A stretch of DNA of 21,030 bases from contig JWZX01002713.1 of NCBI GenBank assembly GCA_001275005.1, positions 1 through 21,030 of the forward strand, in the 5' to 3' direction. This document shows positions 7,696 through 18,882 of the stretch, piece after piece. The translations under genes and the position numbers were made by a program. Below the pieces are notes generated by a model. It saw nothing but the letters and a program-made list of their open reading frames with translations, ran no database searches and was not told the origin of the DNA. The DNA is from Chrysochromulina tobinii. Taxonomy: Eukaryota; Haptophyta; Prymnesiales; Chrysochromulinaceae. The stretch's first letter is position 1. Each line of letters starts with the position of its first letter.

Positions 7696-10600
7696 TCAAG
7701 CGCACGCCTCCTCCCCTCCAGCGCTCGCGGGCTGCACGAACGCCACCGACACGGGCGGCAGCGTGAACGGCCCCTTGACCCAGAGCGCCTCAAAGGGCGG
7801 CGGCGAGCCGTCTGGCGCGGGCACGAGCGCCAAGCCGTTGAGACGCACGACCTTGCTGCTCAGGCTCTCGCTCGTGAGCAAGTGCACGAGGTACCCGCTC
7901 TCGTCCTCGTCGTCCTCTGACGCGGTCGGTCGCCCCAGCGCGGCTGCGAGGTCGAGCACGAAAGTCCGCTCGGTCGCCAAGTTGAGCGCGAGGGCGATCG
8001 GTGTACCAGGCCGCTGTGCCGAGCAGTGGAGCGTGACTTGAAGCGCCGACGGAGCGGGCGGCAGCGAGCCGGGTGCAATCTCCAGCACAGTTGGAGCGAT
8101 CATCTGTCGCCATAGCGCCGCGAGCCAGTAGCTCGGGTTCGGCGCGTACCTGCCATCAGGGGCAATCAGAACCGTACCTGCCATCAGGGGCAATCAGAAC
8201 CGTACTTGCCATCAGAGGCCATCAGAGGCCATCAGAGGCCATCAGAGGCACTCGCGAACGCTCGGGTGTGGCACTTGGCGTGTAGCGATCGATGAGGCAA
8301 TCGCGAGGCAATGGCGAGGCAATCAGAGCCGATTCACGTGTAACGATCGATGAGCTCATAGTCGCCACCGACGAGCGTTTGGCGCATCACGGTGGCCACG
8401 CCACGTGTCGCCATCGCCTGCAGAAGGTAGCCCGTGTAGAAGCAGTCGAGGAAGCTGTCGGTCACGCCTGGAATGCCGCCCGTCCAGCAATTGGCACCCT
8501 CGCCATGCCAGGCACTGATGCCGTGCACGGCGGCGAGCGAGCTGAAGGTCTCTGCGGCCTGGTCGAGCTTACCGAGGCAGCTGAGGCTTAGGATCGTGCC
8601 GTGATCCTCATCGGGCTGGTTGCAGTACGGGTACTGATGCCATGTGAGTGCCTGCAAAGCGCCCTTGGGCACCGCGCCGAGGAATCGCTTAAAATAGTCC
8701 GGAAGGCCAGTGCCGCCTAGGGTTAGGGTTAGGGTTAGGGTTAGGGTTGGGGTTGGGGTTAGGGTTGGGGTTAGGGTTAGGGTTAGGGTTGGGGTTAGGG
8801 TTAGGGTTACCGGTGAAGGCGGCGATGTCGGGGCCGAGAAGGACGGGTCGGTTCACCCTATCCGGCCATAGGCCCTCTATAATGTGAGCGAGGGCGCCCA
8901 AGTCGGCGCCGAGCGTCTCTGGCATCACGCCGTCGCTCCCCGAGTACGTACCATCAAGCTCGTTCGCGAGCTCAAATCCCCACACGGGGAGGCGAGCGCG
9001 CGCCGTGTCGGTCAGGAAGCGCCTCAGGCCCTCCTCCCAATTCAGAGGCGCATTGGGAGCCGTTCGCCCGAGGCAGCCGTTGAGGCCAAGCACGAGCCGC
9101 AGATCCGCGGCGCTCGCGAAGGCGGTGAGCGCTTCCCACCTGGCGAGGGAGGGAAGCAGTGGCAATCAGCAGCCATCAGCAGCCATCAGCAGCCACCAGC
9201 AGCCATCAGCAGCCATCAATGGCCAGCAGTGGCCAGCAGTGCTCAGGAATGCGCTCAGTACGGCGCTTAGTACGGCGCTCGCGGCCTCCCACCGGCTCGT
9301 CGTCAATCATCAGATGCAATCAAGCTCATCAGACGCAATCAAGCTCATCAGATGCAATCAAGCTCGTGGCCTCCCACCGGCTCGTCGTCAGGCAGTCGTA
9401 CACGGGCGGTCGGACTTGTGAGCAATAGTAGGGGGCGCCGAGGGCAGACGAGGAGCCGGACGAGCTGGTAGAGGAGCCGGACGAGCTGGTAGAGGAGCCG
9501 GACGAGCTGGGAGAGGAGCCGGAGGCGGATGCGGCGGATGCGGCGGATGCGGCGGATGCGGCGGAGGCGGAGGCAGAGGTGCCGAAGGTGGCGGTGGGGC
9601 AGTCGCCGCCTCGGGATTGGTACACGAGAGAGTCTTGGGGAGAGCCTCCGATGCGCATCACGGCCGGTCCGAGGGCTTTGGCCAAATTGGCCAGCCTTGA
9701 CGTGAGTGCAAGGGAGAGTGCGGAGGCGTTGCCCCACTTGGCGCCGTACTGGGCATCGTCGGCTCGCCAGAGGTCGAGGGTCACGCCGAAGAAACGGTCC
9801 GAGGTGCGGGCAAGCACCTTGCCGGTAGGGCGCACCTCCACGTGGACGCGGCTCTCGTTCGCAAGCGCGAGGAGCACGAAGCGCGAGTCGTGGGGCGCCA
9901 GGCCCCGAACAGACCATGTGGGCGTGGGGATCAGCCCAAGGTCCTGCCCCAAGTACAGGTCGCGTGCGCTCACGTTACTTGCGCCCCTAAAGTCCGTGGA
10001 CACGTTTGCCAACGGCAGGCTCACGTCGACTGGAGCAGATGCCGTGCTGAGCACGAGGAGCGCATGCTGGCCGTTGCCGAGGGGCTTGGACCAAGCCTGC
10101 CACTTCCCGGCCGGGTCCAGCGCGACCCTCGTGCCGGGCGCGCCTGCCCATGCGCTATTGACCGCGAGCACCTCGACGTTTGAGATGATCGGCCACACGC
10201 GGTCGATGAGCGCCTTGTCCTCGACGTCGAAGCCCAAAATGAGTGGTGACGAGCTGACAGCCCACAACCCAAAGTGAGACCGATCCTCGCTGTAGTTGGC
10301 GAGGCGGCCGACCTCGAGCACTGTGCACAGGCGCGAGGGAGATGGCGAGGTCAAGGGAGATCGCGAGGGAGATCGCGAGGGAGATCGCGAGGGAGATCGC
10401 GAGGGAGATCGCGAGGGAGATCGCGAGGGAGATCGCGAGGGAGATCGCGAGGGAGTCGATCAGCAGCCAGAGGTAGATGGCGAGGTCGTGGTAGGGAGCG
10501 ACGTGGCGCGCGGGTCGAGACGTGGCGCGCGGGTTCGATCGCCGTCCGCGCACTGTCGGGATGCGCCCACGTACCAGGTCTGCTGCGCGGCGGCGTCACT

Positions 10601-11614
10601 TGATTGTAGCGCAGCGTCGTCTCGGCGTTCGCAAGCATCGAGCTCCAAGTGGCGTCGATGTCACCCGAGGTGCGGTACAAGTTGTACGGGCAATCGTTGG
10701 GCGACCCGTCGAATTGGCAGTGCGCGTTGGACGCATCGTACGGCACAAAGTGCACCACGCTCTTGAGGTAGCACTTCGCGAGGGGCGCGTGCGGTGAAAG
10801 CTCATCGGACTCGAAGCTGATGCCCTGGCACTTGGCAAGCTCGGTGCAGTTCGCCATGCACGCGCCGAAGCTTGCGTTGCGCAGCGGCGAGCCGTCGCAA
10901 TCGTCGCCTGCCGAGAGGTACCCTAGCCGGTGCTCATAGCTCGAATTGCCGAGCTTCACATACGTCTGCCACTGCCCTGAGCCGGGTGCGAGGCCACCCT
11001 GATGGCAGTTCTCGAGTAGGATGGGCTTCCCGCTCGCGTTGATCAGCTCGTTCCACCGCGTGAGGTTGTTGAACCTGCGAGCAGGAGTCCAGCTTAAGGC
11101 CGTCGAACCCATACTCCATGAGGGTCTGCACCGATCGGCGGATGACGGTGTCGGCCATCGGCCCATCGAAGCCGTTCTCAGCGCAGATGCAATTGTTGAG
11201 ATACCAACCCGCCTTGACCCCGATTGCATGCGCGTGGGCGACCATCGAAGCTAGGGAGGGAAACTTGGCTTCATCGACCAGCGGCCTGCCTTCGGCATCG
11301 TGGAAGGAGCCGTTCACTCCGGCTCCGCACAGCTGCCAACCATCGTCGAGACCAACGTACTGATACCCAAGCTCGTGCAGCGAGGTTGGTTTACCGCCGA
11401 CGGTCCGCGAAGTATCCACGAACAAGTCCATCGCCGCCTCCATCTTGGACTGCGTCACCTCGCCGCCGTAGGCATTCCAGCTCCTCCAGCCTCGCGGCGG
11501 TGACCGCGCGAGGCCGTTGTCGAGCGCGCCGGTTGGTGGCAGCGAAACGGAAAGGGCGATGAGGGCTGCAAATGTGAGGCTCGGCCAGCGGACTGAAGTC
11601 TCCGTCGACACCAT
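7696..11614 (-). CDS. GH27 alpha-galactosidase fused to GH79 heparanase/glucuronidase-like domain (five exons)
   Basis: Exons 11614-10554, 10320-9378, 9139-8811, 8716-8345 and 8177-7696 give about 1061 residues once one extra base at 11074/11075 is discounted. A signal peptide (about 1-30) is followed by the GH27 start LDNGLARSPPRGWRSWN. GLDDGWQ lies at 88-94, and the nucleophile is D176 in LKLDSC. RTSGDID near 314-320 supplies the acid/base Asp. A Cys-rich PAN/apple-like insert occupies about 225-305. RPGTWAHPDMLEVGRL crosses intron 1, and a beta-sandwich domain ends near 504. Without a stop, the same exon enters GH79: FFGVTLDLWR (530-539), MRIGGSPQDS, acid/base E728 in ELANELDG, nucleophile E850 in WHGEG, then YAPNPSYWLAALWRQ and the C-terminal beta domain. 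Probably secreted or vacuolar and active on acidic, galactose-containing glycans; this substrate is inference. ATG at 11614 is preferred over the upstream GTG. Confidence 0.8.
8178..8344 (-). other. GH79 intron 4 (167 nt) with duplicated junctions
   Basis: Donor GATC|GTTACACG and acceptor GATGGCAG|GTACGGTT restore the frame (D-R-T). The donor junction is repeated inside the intron: 8337-8354 and 8279-8296 match at 17 of 18 positions. The acceptor side contains a 28-nt tandem repeat with further CAG|GTACG sites; using the nearest one (28 nt downstream) would break the frame. The interior is full of CCTCTGATGG- and GATTGCC-type repeats. Confidence 0.7.
8717..8810 (-). other. GH79 intron 3 (94 nt) made entirely of telomere-type hexamers
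   Basis: Donor ACCG|GTAACCCTAA, acceptor AACCCTAG|GCGGC. On the plus strand positions 8721-8810 are fifteen hexamers: ten TTAGGG-type, four TTGGGG-type and one ending in TTAC that supplies the donor. The remaining CTAG supplies the acceptor. Splicing gives AFTG-GTGLPDYFKRFL in the correct frame for GH79. Unspliced, it reads as an Asn-Pro repeat ending in a frame that loses the conserved WHQYPYC segment. Confidence 0.85.
8721..8810. repeat. Interstitial telomere-type repeat (TTAGGG/TTGGGG)n
   Basis: Fifteen uninterrupted hexamers mixing TTAGGG and TTGGGG. They lie within a gene, exactly filling an intron, with the C-rich strand as RNA sense. Confidence 0.95.
9140..9377 (-). other. GH79 intron 2 (238 nt) flanked by direct repeats
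   Basis: Donor CCG|GTGGGAGGC and acceptor CAG|GTGGGAAGC join S-R-W-E-A-L in frame. The first nine intron bases nearly equal the first nine bases of the next exon. A 28-nt copy of the exon/donor junction (9363-9390) recurs inside the intron at 9278-9305 with one mismatch. The rest is repeats such as GCTGATGGCT and CTTGATTGCATCTGATGAG. Confidence 0.8.
9452..9570 (-). repeat. In-frame Ser/Gly/Thr and Ala/Ser coding repeats
   Basis: Within GH79 exon 2 a 21-bp unit encodes SSSGSST about three times, and a 9-bp unit encodes SAA/AAS several times (residues about 602-645). This low-complexity insert sits inside the predicted GH79 barrel, between the first conserved strands and YYCSQV. All units are multiples of three, so the frame is kept. 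Confidence 0.85.
10321..10553 (-). other. GH27 intron 1 (233 nt) containing a 12-mer array
   Basis: Donor GACA|GTGCGCGG and acceptor GTGCACAG|TGCTCGAGG. Joining restores HPDMLEVGRL, the conserved GH27 segment, in frame. The two junctions share ACAGTGC.CG. The intron holds the array at 10354-10455. Confidence 0.85.
10354..10455. repeat. 12-bp tandem repeat, about 8.5 copies
   Basis: Near-perfect GGGAGATCGCGA units (GATCTCCCTCGC-type on the gene strand) inside intron 1 of the GH27-GH79 gene. Open frames across it (RGRSRG- or DLPR-type) are repeat artefacts. On the gene strand it is pyrimidine-rich. Confidence 0.95.
11074..11075 (-). other. Single-base frameshift in the GH27 domain
   Basis: After LKLDSCSQ (Q180) the frame must skip one G in CAGGTTC to continue as FNNLTRWNELINASGKPILLENCHQGG. 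Both flanks are conserved GH27 sequence, with no room for a normal intron. Either a sequencing error or a real inactivating insertion. Confidence 0.75.
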
Positions 11615-11906
11615 GCAACGTTTCGGAGCCACGGTGCCACGACTTCACGAGTCCGGCATGCGGGCCACGTCCGTCCGAAAACTGTCCGAATGCGGTTCAC
11701 AGTGCAAAGGCTGCAAACATGGTAAATATTGACTGAACTTGGGGTGTGAACCGGTTGCGTTCGTAACGGGTGTATGTGTCTTGACTTGACTTGACTTGAC
11801 TTGCAAGCAAGCTAGTTAGTCGAAACAACACAAGTACCTAAACAAGCGCAACCGAATACTCCTGTAGCCAGCGGAGTAGGAAAGAGTGGGCGGAGAGGAT
11901 GGAATG

Positions 11907-13196: not shown

Positions 13197-15050
13197 ATGT
13201 CAGCCCCTCCTCCTCCACCGCCGCAGGACGTCAACCCCATATCTCTCAAAGTGATGCGATTGTGCAAGCCGAGCTTTCACTTCTCTCTGCCGGTGCCATT
13301 CCCACCAGTGGCACCAGCGGGCGGCGATCCGGAGCCCGGAGTCGCGCTCTCGCCGATGCTCGCGCTGCCTCAGAGCTTTGGAGACATCTTCCTCGGCGAG
13401 ACCTTCAGCTGCTATATCTCACTGTGCAACATCGCGCCCATAGAGCTGGCCCAAGTCGGCCTCAAGGTCGAGGTCCAGACCCAGCTTGCTCGGGAGACCC
13501 TATCGGACTCGTCCGTAGCGGGCTCAGCCATTGCACGCTTCGCCTCGCAGCAGACGCTCGATAAGATCATCGAGTACGACCTCAAGGACATTGGCATCCA
13601 CATCCTCATCTGTTCGGCGCTCTACACGGACTCGCAAGGCGAGCGCAAATACTTCCGCAAGGTGCGCGTGCGCCGCGCCGCTCGCACCGCATTGTATGCA
13701 CCCGCCATGCGATCGATGCCTCTGCTTGCTCCTCCGGCGCCGCGCCGTGGGCCGCGCGTTGGCCCACGCCGCTGAAGGCCGCACTGACACCCGCCCCGCG
13801 CACCGGCTCGCAGTTCTTCAAGTTTCAGGTCAACAATCCACTCTCGATGAGGAGTAAGACGCATGCGCTCTCGCTGAACAACGAGGTACTCATCGAGACC
13901 CACTGATGACCTCTGATTGCCTCTGATGAACTATGATGACCTCTGATGACGCCTCTCGATTGCACCCTCATCAGGTACTCATAGAGACCCAATTGCAGAA
14001 CGCGATGCCACGCCATCTCTTCCTCCACTCGGTCGAGTTCAAGCCGGCGCCACAGTTCGAGGTCGAGTCGCTCAATGTCTTCCCGCCCAATGCCTTCCCG
14101 CCCTCCCTGGCTGCGCAGCCGCTCTCAAGAGCGCAGCCCGAAGCCGCGCCCGGCACGGCGCCCGGCGCCGGTGGTAGCGGCAGCGGCGCGGCGTCTGTGG
14201 TCGCCTCTGCTGTCGGGTTGCCCGCGTTTGGCCACCTAGCGTATCTCAAGAGCGGGGACACGCAGCAGTACATGTTCCGGCTGCGCGGCAAGGTGCCGCC
14301 TGCGCAGCTGCGCCAGATAAATACTCTAGGTGGGTTCGTGGCGGAGCTTGCCGCGGATCGCGTCTCGCATGGCCACCGATGGCCTCTCTGCTCGCCACTG
14401 ATTGTGCTCGAGCTGGACGCAGGTCGGATGGAGGTCGTGTGGAAGCTCACCCTAACCCGAACCCTGACCCTAACCCGAACGCAGGTCGGATGGAGGTCGT
14501 GTGGAAGTCGTCCATGGGCGAGGCGGGCCGGCTACAAAGCAATACCGTGCAGCGCAAGCTGCCGGTCGTGAGGGGCGTCGAGATCCATCTGATCTCGGCG
14601 CCATCTGAGGTGCATCTCGAGACGCCCTTTGAGATCGTAATCTCGGTCGCCAATACCTCCTCGAGCGAGATGCAGCTGCAGCTCATGGCGTCGACAATGC
14701 TGCCGCCGGCCCCAGCGGCGATTGTGGTCGAGGGCGTGTGCACGCGCAACCTCGGCACCTTCCGACCAAACTCGTCGCAGTCAGTCACCATACGAATGCT
14801 TGCGATCGAGACTGGCATGCATAGGGTCACTGGGCTGCAGCTCATCGATGTCCTCAGCGAGCAGGTGCGTGAGCACGCCCCCACAAGACTTGATTGTGAT
14901 TACAATCACATCCTACAAAACTTTGTATGGACCCCGTGGTGCGCATGATTTGCGTCTGATTTCTCATCGATCTGCATCGATCTCCTCACCGAGCAGGTGC
15001 ACGAGGTTGGCTCGCTCGCGGACATCTTCGTGCTTGGGCATCGCGAGTGA
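13197..15050 (+). CDS. TRAPPC13: TRAPPC13 (DUF974), TRAPP complex subunit, five exons
   Basis: Exons 13197-13661, 13814-13885, 13975-14329, 14485-14864 and 14997-15050 give 441 residues, close to the roughly 417 of the human protein. Recognised segments: ISLKVMRLCKPSFHF; LALPQSFGDIFLGETFSCYISLCN; IGIHILICSALY; GERKYFRKFFKFQV across intron 1; YMFRLRGKV; GRMEVVWKSSMGEAGRLQ across intron 3; and TGLQLIDVLSEQ-VHEVGSLADIFVLGHRE at the end. The family is a subunit of TRAPP complexes that tether vesicles and activate Rab GTPases. An Ala/Gly/Pro-rich insert lies within exon 3. ATG at 13197 (MSAPPPPPP) is preferred because the next residues align with the family start; the ATG at 13131 would add an Arg-rich leader. 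Three of its four introns have duplicated or repeat-laden junctions. Confidence 0.93.
13662..13813 (+). other. TRAPPC13 intron 1 (152 nt)
   Basis: Donor CGCAAG|GTGCGCG, acceptor GGCTCGCAG|TTCTTC, phase 0, joining YFRK to FFKFQV. GC-rich with a CTGAC near the 3' end; no direct repeat at the junctions, unlike the other introns of the gene. Confidence 0.85.
13886..13974 (+). other. TRAPPC13 intron 2 (89 nt) starting with a copy of the next exon
   Basis: Donor GAG|GTACTCATCGAGACCCA and acceptor CAG|GTACTCATAGAGACCCA, phase 0. The first 17 intron bases match the first 17 bases of exon 3 at 16 positions. Between them lie CCTCTGATGA/TGATGACC repeats. Confidence 0.9.
14330..14484 (+). other. TRAPPC13 intron 3 (155 nt) with duplicated 3' splice junction and telomere-like insert
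   Basis: Donor CTCTAG|GTGGGTTC, acceptor GAACGCAG|GTCGGATGG, giving INTLG-RMEVVWK in frame. A 29-nt sequence spanning the acceptor and following exon occurs twice, at 14417-14445 and 14479-14507, without mismatch. Using the first acceptor would read into the repeat and shift the frame. Confidence 0.88.
14446..14478 (+). repeat. Telomere-like hexamers between duplicated splice junctions
   Basis: After CTCA the stretch reads CCCTAA, CCCGAA, CCCTGA, CCCTAA, CCCGA(A): five degenerate C-strand telomere hexamers in RNA-sense orientation. Confidence 0.85.
14865..14996 (+). other. TRAPPC13 intron 4 (132 nt) between 31-nt direct repeats
   Basis: Donor AGCGAGCAG|GTGCGTGAG, acceptor ACCGAGCAG|GTGCACGAG, phase 0. 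The junction-spanning segments 14843-14873 and 14975-15005 match at 27 of 31 positions. The interior is AT-richer (GATTGTGATTACAATCACATC) than the exons. Confidence 0.9.
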
Positions 15051-17005: not shown

Positions 17006-17778
17006 TGTCGCGAGACGTGTGATCAACACTCTTCCAGCTCAACAGTTGGCCAACGACGTCGGTCGAGCGCTCGCCCGTGAAAGACTAACGGAAACCTCTT
17101 TGATCACACTGACCAAGCGCGTCAATAGCGCAGCGCACCGCGGTCAATACGCAGTGGAGTCGCCTCGATCGCGACACACGCGGAACCTCAAATCCGACGG
17201 AGAACACAACTTACTGTACAGTACCGGTACAAGTTTGGGAGAGACACGGCCTGCGTTGTTAGCGGCCTCGTCACTCGCACTTGCCTCTGCAAGTGCCCCC
17301 ATGTTCACACCACCGTGCGTTTGCACTTTCCCTTACGCGTCGCCGACGTCGGTGTCGAAAAGGAGAGAGTGGATTCACGAATGGAGCGCTGCGTCGGGCG
17401 CACGCGACGGGGAGCCGCGACACTCCCAAAGGTTCGTCAGTGAGTGAGCTTCCGTTAGTACGCCACATACGAACACTTGTCGGCTCTGAAACGTCGAGCG
17501 GTTTCTTTAGGCGCGCGCTTTCTGTACGGTACACGGCGGTTTTTGGGGGGCGAAGGTGGAGACAGCGGCAGGGAACCAGGGATCAATTCACCCGGTTCGT
17601 CTGGCTCTCTGCCAGGAGATCAGGCTAGGGGGAAGTGACGGGAAGTGGTGGCAGGATATGGGGAATGGCGTTCCAGACTCGTGCAGTCGGATTCCGGAAC
17701 ATTTCTTTTTTGATCTTTTCGGACATCGCCCGCGCTCCCCTCGCGCGCATGTGCGGGGTATAGGGGTGACGTGGGGTT
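17006..17778. other. Intergenic, no gene recognised
   Basis: About 770 bases upstream of the methyltransferase-like gene, presumably including its promoter. Short open frames on both strands show no family resemblance. No RNA gene was recognised. Confidence 0.45.
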
Positions 17779-18350
17779 TCCTATCCTTTTTTGGGGGGGT
17801 TCCTATCGGATACGTATCCTGATGTATTTCGATGTATCCTGCATGTATCCTGATCGTATCTTGATGTGTCCCGTTCATATACATCAAGATACATCAAGAT
17901 ACATGCAGGATACAACAAGATACATTTGCAGATACGTGCCTCTCTGGATACAATTGAGATACATGTATCTCATTATGTATCCCTCATGTATCCCGCATGT
18001 AAATCCTCCATGTATCCTCGAACCTCTGCAGATACATGTATCTCATATGTATCCCGCATGTATCCCGCATGTATCCCACGTGCACGATACATGTATCTTG
18101 ATGTATCTCATACATGTATGTATCCCAAAATGTATCTTGGACTCGTTCGGGATACGTGTAAAATACATGCAGATACATGTATTCTCTTGGAATGTAACAG
18201 GGCATTTAAGATACATTTGAGATACATCAGGATACATAAGGGATACATGTATCCTTCAGGATACATGCAGGATACATGCAGCCTTGCAGGATACATCGAA
18301 ATACATCAGGATACGTATCCGATAGGACCCCCCCCCCAAAAAGGATAGGA
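17779..18350. mobile_element. Fold-back element with about 64-bp terminal inverted repeats and ATACAT/ATGTAT array
   Basis: The left end (17779-17842) and the reverse complement of the right end (18286-18350) are nearly identical: TCCTATCCTTTTT, a G run, TCCTATCGGATACGTATCC, then TGATGTATTTCGATGTATCC. Between them lie roughly 35 copies of ATACAT or its complement ATGTAT, often as the palindrome GATACATGTATC. Orientation of the words switches along the element. No transposase is present, so if mobile it would be non-autonomous (fold-back or MITE-like). A target-site duplication could not be defined. Long open frames through it on both strands are artefacts of the stop-poor repeat. Confidence 0.6.
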
Positions 18351-18882
18351 CCCCCCCCTAACCCCGGGGTATAGCGCGCGTGTTGGTCTTCGAAGTTCGA
18401 TGGATCCGAGGTATCACACACTACAGCCCGCGGCCGCGTGGGCGGGCGCGCGGCGCTGACCGACCCAGCAAGCAGCATCCCGCCTCACAAGTCACATCCG
18501 CCATCCTCGTGTAATCCGACCTCGATCGATTTCGTATATAGATAGGTAGTATCATAATAGCTGACGTTCGAGCATGCGATGCGTTCGAGTGCGTTTATGT
18601 GATAGTAATTGTGATTACGCCACTGATTACGGATACGGACTCGCGAAAAGCTAACCTTAGGACTATACTTCGCTATGCTCGGTTCAACGGCCGTCAAACA
18701 GTCTACCTTCAACCATTCTCTTATCGGATACATCTCTCCTACATCTCTCCGCCGGGACGACGGGATCGTCACATGACGAGGCCTCTCTCACGTCGTCGTC
18801 GAACGTCGTCGCGGCTCGCGCTCGTTCTCAAGTTCAGTCCTTCTCGCATACGAGTACTCCACGCCAACGGCCCCGCCGCGTG
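18351..18882. other. Intergenic, no gene recognised
   Basis: About 530 bases between the fold-back element and the stop codon of the transporter gene. No recognised gene or RNA; it must include the transporter's 3' end. Confidence 0.45.

Follow-up and report, generated by a model that had tools for sequence, protein, structure and literature searches.

The GH79 gene of Chrysochromulina tobinii raises the question of how a coding sequence came to be interrupted by a predicted intron made only of telomere repeats, and whether this DNA was inserted as such or grew inside an older intron. The window analyzed is the entire 21,030-nt contig, from a genome assembly of 53.15 Mb in 2253 contigs. The host gene lies on the minus strand at about 7.7–9.9 kb and belongs to GH79 (Pfam PF03662; heparanases in the PDB). 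An alpha-galactosidase-like (Melibiase_2) region lies directly 5' of the GH79 region (window 7696–11632, minus strand), and a single frame connects the Melibiase_2 end to the GH79 start; the same join is found in the relatives P0003 and P0006, and this may be a GH27–GH79 fusion. The features of the GH79 site are as follows (here and below, a slash marks a splice position):

8717..8810, minus strand: predicted spliceosomal intron of telomere repeats, 94 nt, phase 1; homologues contiguous, empty site in P0015
8718..8809, minus strand: telomere array in a single register, 92 nt (11 TAACCC, 4 CAACCC and TA)
8810..8811, minus strand: left GG, possible 2-bp target duplication; the second G is base 1 of the donor GT
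8716..8717, minus strand: right GG, possible 2-bp target duplication; the first G completes the acceptor CCCTAG
8811..9139, minus strand: GH79 exon on the 5' side of the telomere intron
8338..8716, minus strand: GH79 exon on the 3' side of the telomere intron; its end is set by the next predicted donor
9140..9377, minus strand: upstream intron, 238 nt, filled with tandem repeats (10-mers and others); the P0015 ORF retains its 3' end

The 94-nt intron can be read as ...TTCACCGG, the one-register array of 92 nt, and GGCGGCAC.... The array fills the entire intron, with no residual other sequence, and a single register kept over 92 bases cannot be due to chance. The first-pass annotation, which described an intron composed wholly of telomere-type repeats (15 hexamers and CTAG in the frame used there), was exact in this respect. 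It also derived the donor GTAACC from a variant hexamer, whereas in the one-register reading the G is supplied by the flank. Both the donor G/GTAACC and the acceptor CCCTAG/G are made at junctions of array and flank; the donor is the only GT in the intron and the acceptor is its only AG. Ten branch-point-like CTRAY motifs are present, the last of which starts 10 nt before the 3' end; they are sequence matches to the consensus given in the first-pass annotation. The sequence AACCCTAACCCTAGG has two exact copies in the 53-Mb genome, one in the GH79 intron and the other on contig C2226 (locus L042), and both are predicted 3' splice sites.

The repeat is the same as that at the chromosome ends. 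The terminal repeat of this genome is CCCTAA, and the seven arrays that could be placed within about 50 nt of contig ends are all in telomere orientation (left ends of C103, C992, C1485, C1490, C1678 and C1970; right end of C855). The duplication score of the GH79 site is 16, which is the background level, and at most the 2-bp GG is duplicated there; a duplicated AG/GT segment of the kind left by tandem genomic duplication is absent.

That the 94 nt are an intron, as first proposed, is indicated by the reading frame, by the continuity of homologues across the junction, and by P0015. The protein without the 94 nt reads ...LLGPDIAAFTG/GTGLPDYFKRF..., and the uninterrupted form of the target site would read ...TTCACCGGCGGCAC.... 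Since 94 is not divisible by three, retention would shift the GH79 frame. Fourteen homologues were found and ten were aligned, of which seven are contiguous across the junction (P0001, P0002, P0003, P0004, P0005, P0007 and P0008); P0006 (ENA, 8847-nt contig) stops short of the junction, and P0009 and P0012 differ around it. P0002 (518 aa, 1612-nt contig) looks like the transcript of a relative. P0004, P0007 and P0008, which have no intron here, are on contigs of 5974, 15,921 and 5842 nt. Frame and homology together suggest that the array is spliced out.

A search with the unspliced ORF of 158 aa revealed P0015, a 245-aa protein from ENA that represents a cluster of 46 and is encoded on a 3505-nt contig. 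Its identity with the GH79 protein of the window is 98% over the shared part, or 97% and 95% for the individual exons. In P0015 these two exons are directly connected, with no array between them, and read ...GPDIAAFTGGTGLPDYF... contiguously. It starts with the 3' end of intron A (MPLLPSLA) and ends with the first codons of intron C (DRYT); because the edges of both flanking introns are retained, it looks genomic, and a transcript from which only the middle intron had been removed seems less likely. The orthologous site is thus empty at the protein level, as seen in a cluster representative. No match to P0015 was found in the viral contig collection. With 38 and 44% identity, paralogues in the same genome were too divergent to be used as empty sites; the GH79 locus is single-copy, with no other copy found in this genome. 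A longer, non-telomeric intron in a related strain had been named as the observation that would speak for late expansion of the repeats, and P0015 has no intron at the site. Because P0015, P0004, P0007 and P0008 lack this intron, a gain in the lineage of the window is the simplest history, and the GH79 intron would most simply be a recent clean insertion. The suggestion that telomeric DNA was inserted, and did not grow within an older intron, agrees with the empty site in P0015 and with the target duplications at many other arrays.

These arrays were found by scanning both strands for the pattern (CCCNRA)n; the set analyzed comprises 50 internal arrays from 48 loci, and 23 of the 27 places from one pattern scan are outside this count. 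Two satellites (L074 and L104) and four contig ends (L001, L012, L067 and L103) were removed beforehand, and L100 was kept, although it is a GGACCC repeat and not telomeric. The control was a stricter null of 4433 places in the same loci, as an earlier null contained tandem repeats. Direct flanking copies with a score of at least 24 were found at 24 of the 50 arrays, compared with 191 control places (4.3%), which leaves 26 arrays without a duplication at this score. At a score of at least 40, the counts were 17 of 50 and 67 of 4433 (Fisher P about 5e-18), and when both copies were also required to abut the array, 13 of 50 and 24 of 4433 (Fisher P about 2e-17). The target duplications in the array class are 13–51 nt long. 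The clearest case is L022 (C881), where a pure CCCTAA array is bracketed by two perfect 47-nt copies, both of which contain AACGCAG/GTGCGC. AGGT is present within the C-rich-strand duplication at 10 of the 23 duplicated loci.

The identity of the two copies correlates with the CCCTAA purity of the array between them (rho 0.62, P 0.002, n = 23). Such a joint fall is expected if duplication and array arose together and aged together. The regular TAACCC/GAACCC pattern of L039 indicates that some growth after insertion is likely. Ten of the 23 C-sense proteins were scanned with Pfam, and eight of them match a family at E ≤ 0.01 (L052 below the curated cut-off); no Pfam match was found for the C-sense proteins of L022 and L039. 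Pfam matches of C-rich-sense frames span the joined site at L050 (MatE), L082 (Ion_trans), L092 (TAXi_C/Asp) and L047 (cyclophilin).

The orientation of the arrays relative to coding sequence was assessed with a codon score trained on 1088 codons from three genes of the window (the window arrays lie in two of them) and applied to 450 nt of each flank of the 50 arrays. Where both flanks scored at least 10 on one strand, this was the C-rich strand in 17 of 17 cases and never the G-rich strand; the check for a sense-strand bias toward CCCTAA proposed at the outset thus came out as predicted. Without the genes of the window, the ratio is 15 to 0 (P 6e-5), and with thresholds of 8, 9, 12 and 14 the C-rich strand was favored in 23, 19, 13 and 10 cases, respectively, versus 0. 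The strand claim rests on this codon score, the Pfam scans having covered the C-sense proteins. A strong G-rich-strand coding score was seen at L061, L076 and L100, in one flank only. The longest ORF through the empty site favored the C-rich strand at 19 of 23 duplicated loci, with L011, L033, L048 and L102 showing the opposite. If insertion is blind to orientation, the strand bias reflects selection for the spliceable strand.

Arrays of this type are also seen to break up conserved genes in other public ORFs and in a protein of Phaeocystis antarctica. The search with the unspliced 158-aa ORF gave, in addition to P0015, 42 proteins (P0016–P0057), all with NPNP-type arrays, through which they were matched. 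Ten of the array proteins were rescanned, most of them with a domain already listed, and Pfam matches were obtained for nine: kinesin, gelsolin, EF-hand, V-ATPase, peptidase M1, CLC, MatE, CH and dynein AAA. In P0020 the kinesin match is in two stretches; the one shown stops at the array start, and motor-like sequence resumes beyond. An array ending in ...PR (the reading of CCTAACCCTAGG) was found in 16 of 51 cases, a count possibly biased by the query, which shared that ending. In P0025 (EukProt, Phaeocystis antarctica), two arrays have repeated peptides on each side (SLGRA and RPEMAAL). P0036, for which no Pfam match was found, has a myosin-like ORF, as judged by eye, with C-rich-sense arrays and a terminal, seemingly G-rich-sense array (RLRLRVRV type). 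It may be an exception to the strand bias, and orientation may not be absolute.

A second array in the window lies in the TRAPPC13 gene:

14330..14421, plus strand: older TRAPPC13 intron, absent from homologous proteins; the telomere insertion duplicated its 3' splice site
14417..14445, plus strand: first copy of a perfect 29-nt target duplication (ACGCAG/GTCGG...)
14446..14483, plus strand: telomere-like array that continues into the duplicated acceptor (CTCACCCTAACCCGAACCCTGACCCTAACCCGA followed by ACGCAG)
14479..14507, plus strand: second 29-nt copy, containing the acceptor CGCAG/GTCGG

The possibility that this array is a new intron was rejected; homologues show an older intron that was lengthened at its 3' end. 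The sister cluster P0058 (29 members, jgi/lgn/ena) is also occupied at this place, by a different array; P0058 ends in ...GRMEVVWKLTLTRA. The named relatives of the TRAPPC13 protein are from Phaeocystis antarctica, Calcidiscus leptoporus and Chrysotila carterae.

Comparison of the loci suggests three routes by which such insertions may acquire splice sites. In the first, the array would meet a suitable flanking base, as in the GH79 intron and in the cyclophilin locus L047 (C943). The latter reads ATTGG, TAACCCTATCC...CAACTCA and GGCGGC, with the same GG...GG form and GGCGGC target as the GH79 intron. In the second, a duplicated target stretch would carry the splice sites, as predicted for L042 (C2226), L022, L039, L044, L050, L092 and others. 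The L042 intron reads TGG/GTGCTTGG...CCCTAG/GTGCGC and is 77 nt long, with a short GTGC repeat; a donor giving a 70-nt intron was rejected, since it is in the 77-nt form that the frame stays open and reads on. In the third, duplication of an older intron's 3' splice site would lengthen that intron; homologues show this for TRAPPC13, and the same appears to have happened at L011, L048 and, probably, L056. A search with AGGTAACCCTAACCC returned no match, which indicates that a CAG/GTAACCC donor of exactly that form is not general.

Several other repeats were observed. The 17-mer GTGCTCACCACGGCGCC has 668 exact copies in this genome, against 0 for the control; close relatives of the 17-mer lie between exon duplications in several loci (e.g., L033, L038, L047, L092 and L094), and these sequences are probably an abundant introner family. 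Introns of the window at 8145–8340, 9157–9390, 10330–10570 and 13887–13975 contain tandem repeats of 10–12 nt (CTGATTGCCT and AGGGAGATCGCG types), and some tandem-repeat introns adjoin duplicated exon sequence, such as a 29-nt stretch present at both 9277 and 9362. At 17763–18365 there is an element of roughly 600 nt with 81-nt inverted ends (84% complementary) and many GATACAT/ATGTATC 11-mers, which looks like a non-autonomous DNA element. A 66-bp satellite of 3.9 copies with the internal 8-mer TTCCGAGT occupies positions 45–300. Loci L009 (C294) and L036 (C1330) are similar dispersed repeats in apparently noncoding sequence, and a CCCTAA array occupies the corresponding position in both.

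Apparently, the GH79 intron is young, and we consider it very probable that it arose in one step, by insertion of about 92 nt of telomeric DNA between two Gs of an exon, most likely during double-strand break repair. Observed in favor of this are the sequence itself, the junctions, the duplications as a class, the strand bias and the protein-level empty site. From these we infer actual splicing, break repair and a role of telomerase. The C-rich sense strand would bring repeated CTAAC and pyrimidines and no internal GT or AG, so that the only splice sites would be those formed with the flanking Gs, and splicing would restore the original GH79 coding sequence. The same insertion process would have acted at many genes of this genome, often duplicating 13–51 nt of the target; where the duplicated stretch held AG/GT or an existing acceptor, its two copies would supply both splice sites. 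Possibly, a staggered break leaves long 3' overhangs, telomerase primes on bases that are in register and adds repeats to one end, and both overhangs are then filled in, giving the target duplication, before end joining. Insertions into coding sequence would persist only in the spliceable orientation.

The bases at the junctions bear on the role of telomerase. The 3' end from which G-strand synthesis would start is at the right junction, and there at least one in-register base was found in 15 of 18 cases and at least two in 9 of 18. This excess has P 0.0007 for both counts when chance extension on both sides is allowed for, and 0.007 and 0.01 with C-rich composition. At the left junction, the counts were 13 of 19 and 4 of 19, a weak excess. 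The bases at the right junction fit telomerase better than the capture at breaks of telomeric fragments, or of reverse-transcribed TERRA-like RNA, without telomerase at the site. Such capture would have the same intron as its outcome, and we regard it as a tenable, though less favored, explanation. The 10-mer repeats and the sequences holding the 668-copy 17-mer also sit between exon duplications, and these other fillers imply that the duplicating step needs no telomerase; in addition, introners are reported for a Chrysochromulina MAG by Gozashti et al. 2022 (PMC9860276). In turn, interstitial telomeres of the horse show in-register bases, and some of those in horse and mouse carry telomerase-RNA sequence, according to PMC7215372.

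If the insertion were unspliced, the gene would be broken in this strain, which we find unlikely. A single assembly carries the array, and its 94 nt would shift the frame; however, the exact GT-AG ends, the CTRAY motifs and the lack of internal splice sites are those of an intron, loci whose duplications have diverged by 10–22% keep long open C-sense frames (L044, L052, L070, L082, L092 and L095), and the strand bias is best explained by selection for splicing. Late slippage expansion of telomere repeats inside an older, ordinary GH79 intron has in its favor that tandem repeats are frequent in the introns of this genome, that the TRAPPC13 insertion adjoins the edge of an older intron, and that the pattern of L039 suggests later growth. 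Against this, P0015 is intronless at the site despite having the edges of the flanking introns, homologues on genomic-sized contigs are intronless as well, and the array occupies the whole intron, so that such an expansion is most unlikely. Telomeric reads joined into the gene by the assembler are hardly credible as the source: the array at 8717 is known from one assembly and the contigs are short, but the flanks are collinear with one gene at a single-copy locus, and an array at TRAPPC13 is also seen in the independent cluster P0058.

The proposed one-step telomeric insertion at a break has a counterpart in the short interstitial telomeric sequences (ITSs) of mammals. For these, Santagostino et al. 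2020 (PMC7215372) likewise describe single-step insertion at breaks, orthologous sites that are empty in relatives, and in-register junction bases. Target duplication is reported there at a few loci, with duplication alone listed for 3 of 66 horse loci, versus 24 of 50 arrays here; human ITSs are described as absent from exons, whereas the arrays found here are in coding sequence with the C-rich strand as sense. The ITS authors expected stop codons in both orientations and thought it interesting to test the effect of ITSs on splicing.

Among known routes of intron gain, the break-repair introns of Daphnia (reviewed by Yenerall and Zhou 2012, PMC3443670) have short direct flanking repeats, explained by the filling of staggered breaks with inserted DNA, a pattern resembling that of the array class; unlike in Daphnia, the filler is here identified as telomeric, the class recurs, and the longer duplications often give both splice sites. 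Introners, as described in PMC9860276, resemble the present class in that many similar introns occur genome-wide in one genome and a splice site possibly comes from the target duplication. They differ in having duplications of 3–9 bp, compared with 13–51 nt of variable length for the arrays, which are simple repeats without terminal inverted repeats, and in their transposon source, as opposed to what looks like a chromosome end. The word "telomere" does not occur in the text of PMC9860276. In tandem genomic duplication of AGGT (e.g., PMC4974935), two AG/GT copies give donor and acceptor, as at some of our loci; the copies here, however, enclose telomeric filler, and the GH79 intron does not use that route. 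Rogers and Bendich 2025 (PMC11782384) examined 213 introns and report that all of them have direct repeats of 4–30 bp close to their borders. Given that such repeats are claimed there to be general, short repeats by themselves prove little, and it is the counts of abutting and long duplications with a control that matter. No paper on introns made of telomere repeats was recognized by title or abstract in the literature covered, most subscription papers and bioRxiv lying outside this coverage. The outcome, a spliceosomal intron, and the general route, insertion at a break, would thus be known ones; what appears to be new is a source that can be traced at genome scale.

The origin of new introns is a long-standing question, because most introns that have been gained can no longer be traced to a source. 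Here the source sequence is known, and a near-identical population seems still to have the gene in its empty form. How far the flanking copies have diverged gives a ranking of the stages of decay, and selection by the spliceosome can be read from the orientation bias. The finding links telomere repair to intron birth. Whether this extends to haptophytes as a group is, in our estimation, evenly balanced: telomerase acting at staggered breaks may be a recurrent source of introns in these algae, the C-rich strand, with a CTAAC at every TAACCC unit and neither GT nor AG inside, serving as a ready-made intron body, so that a gene repaired in this orientation would work at once. If so, telomerase would count as an enzyme that makes introns, and through splicing genes would tolerate telomeric repair.
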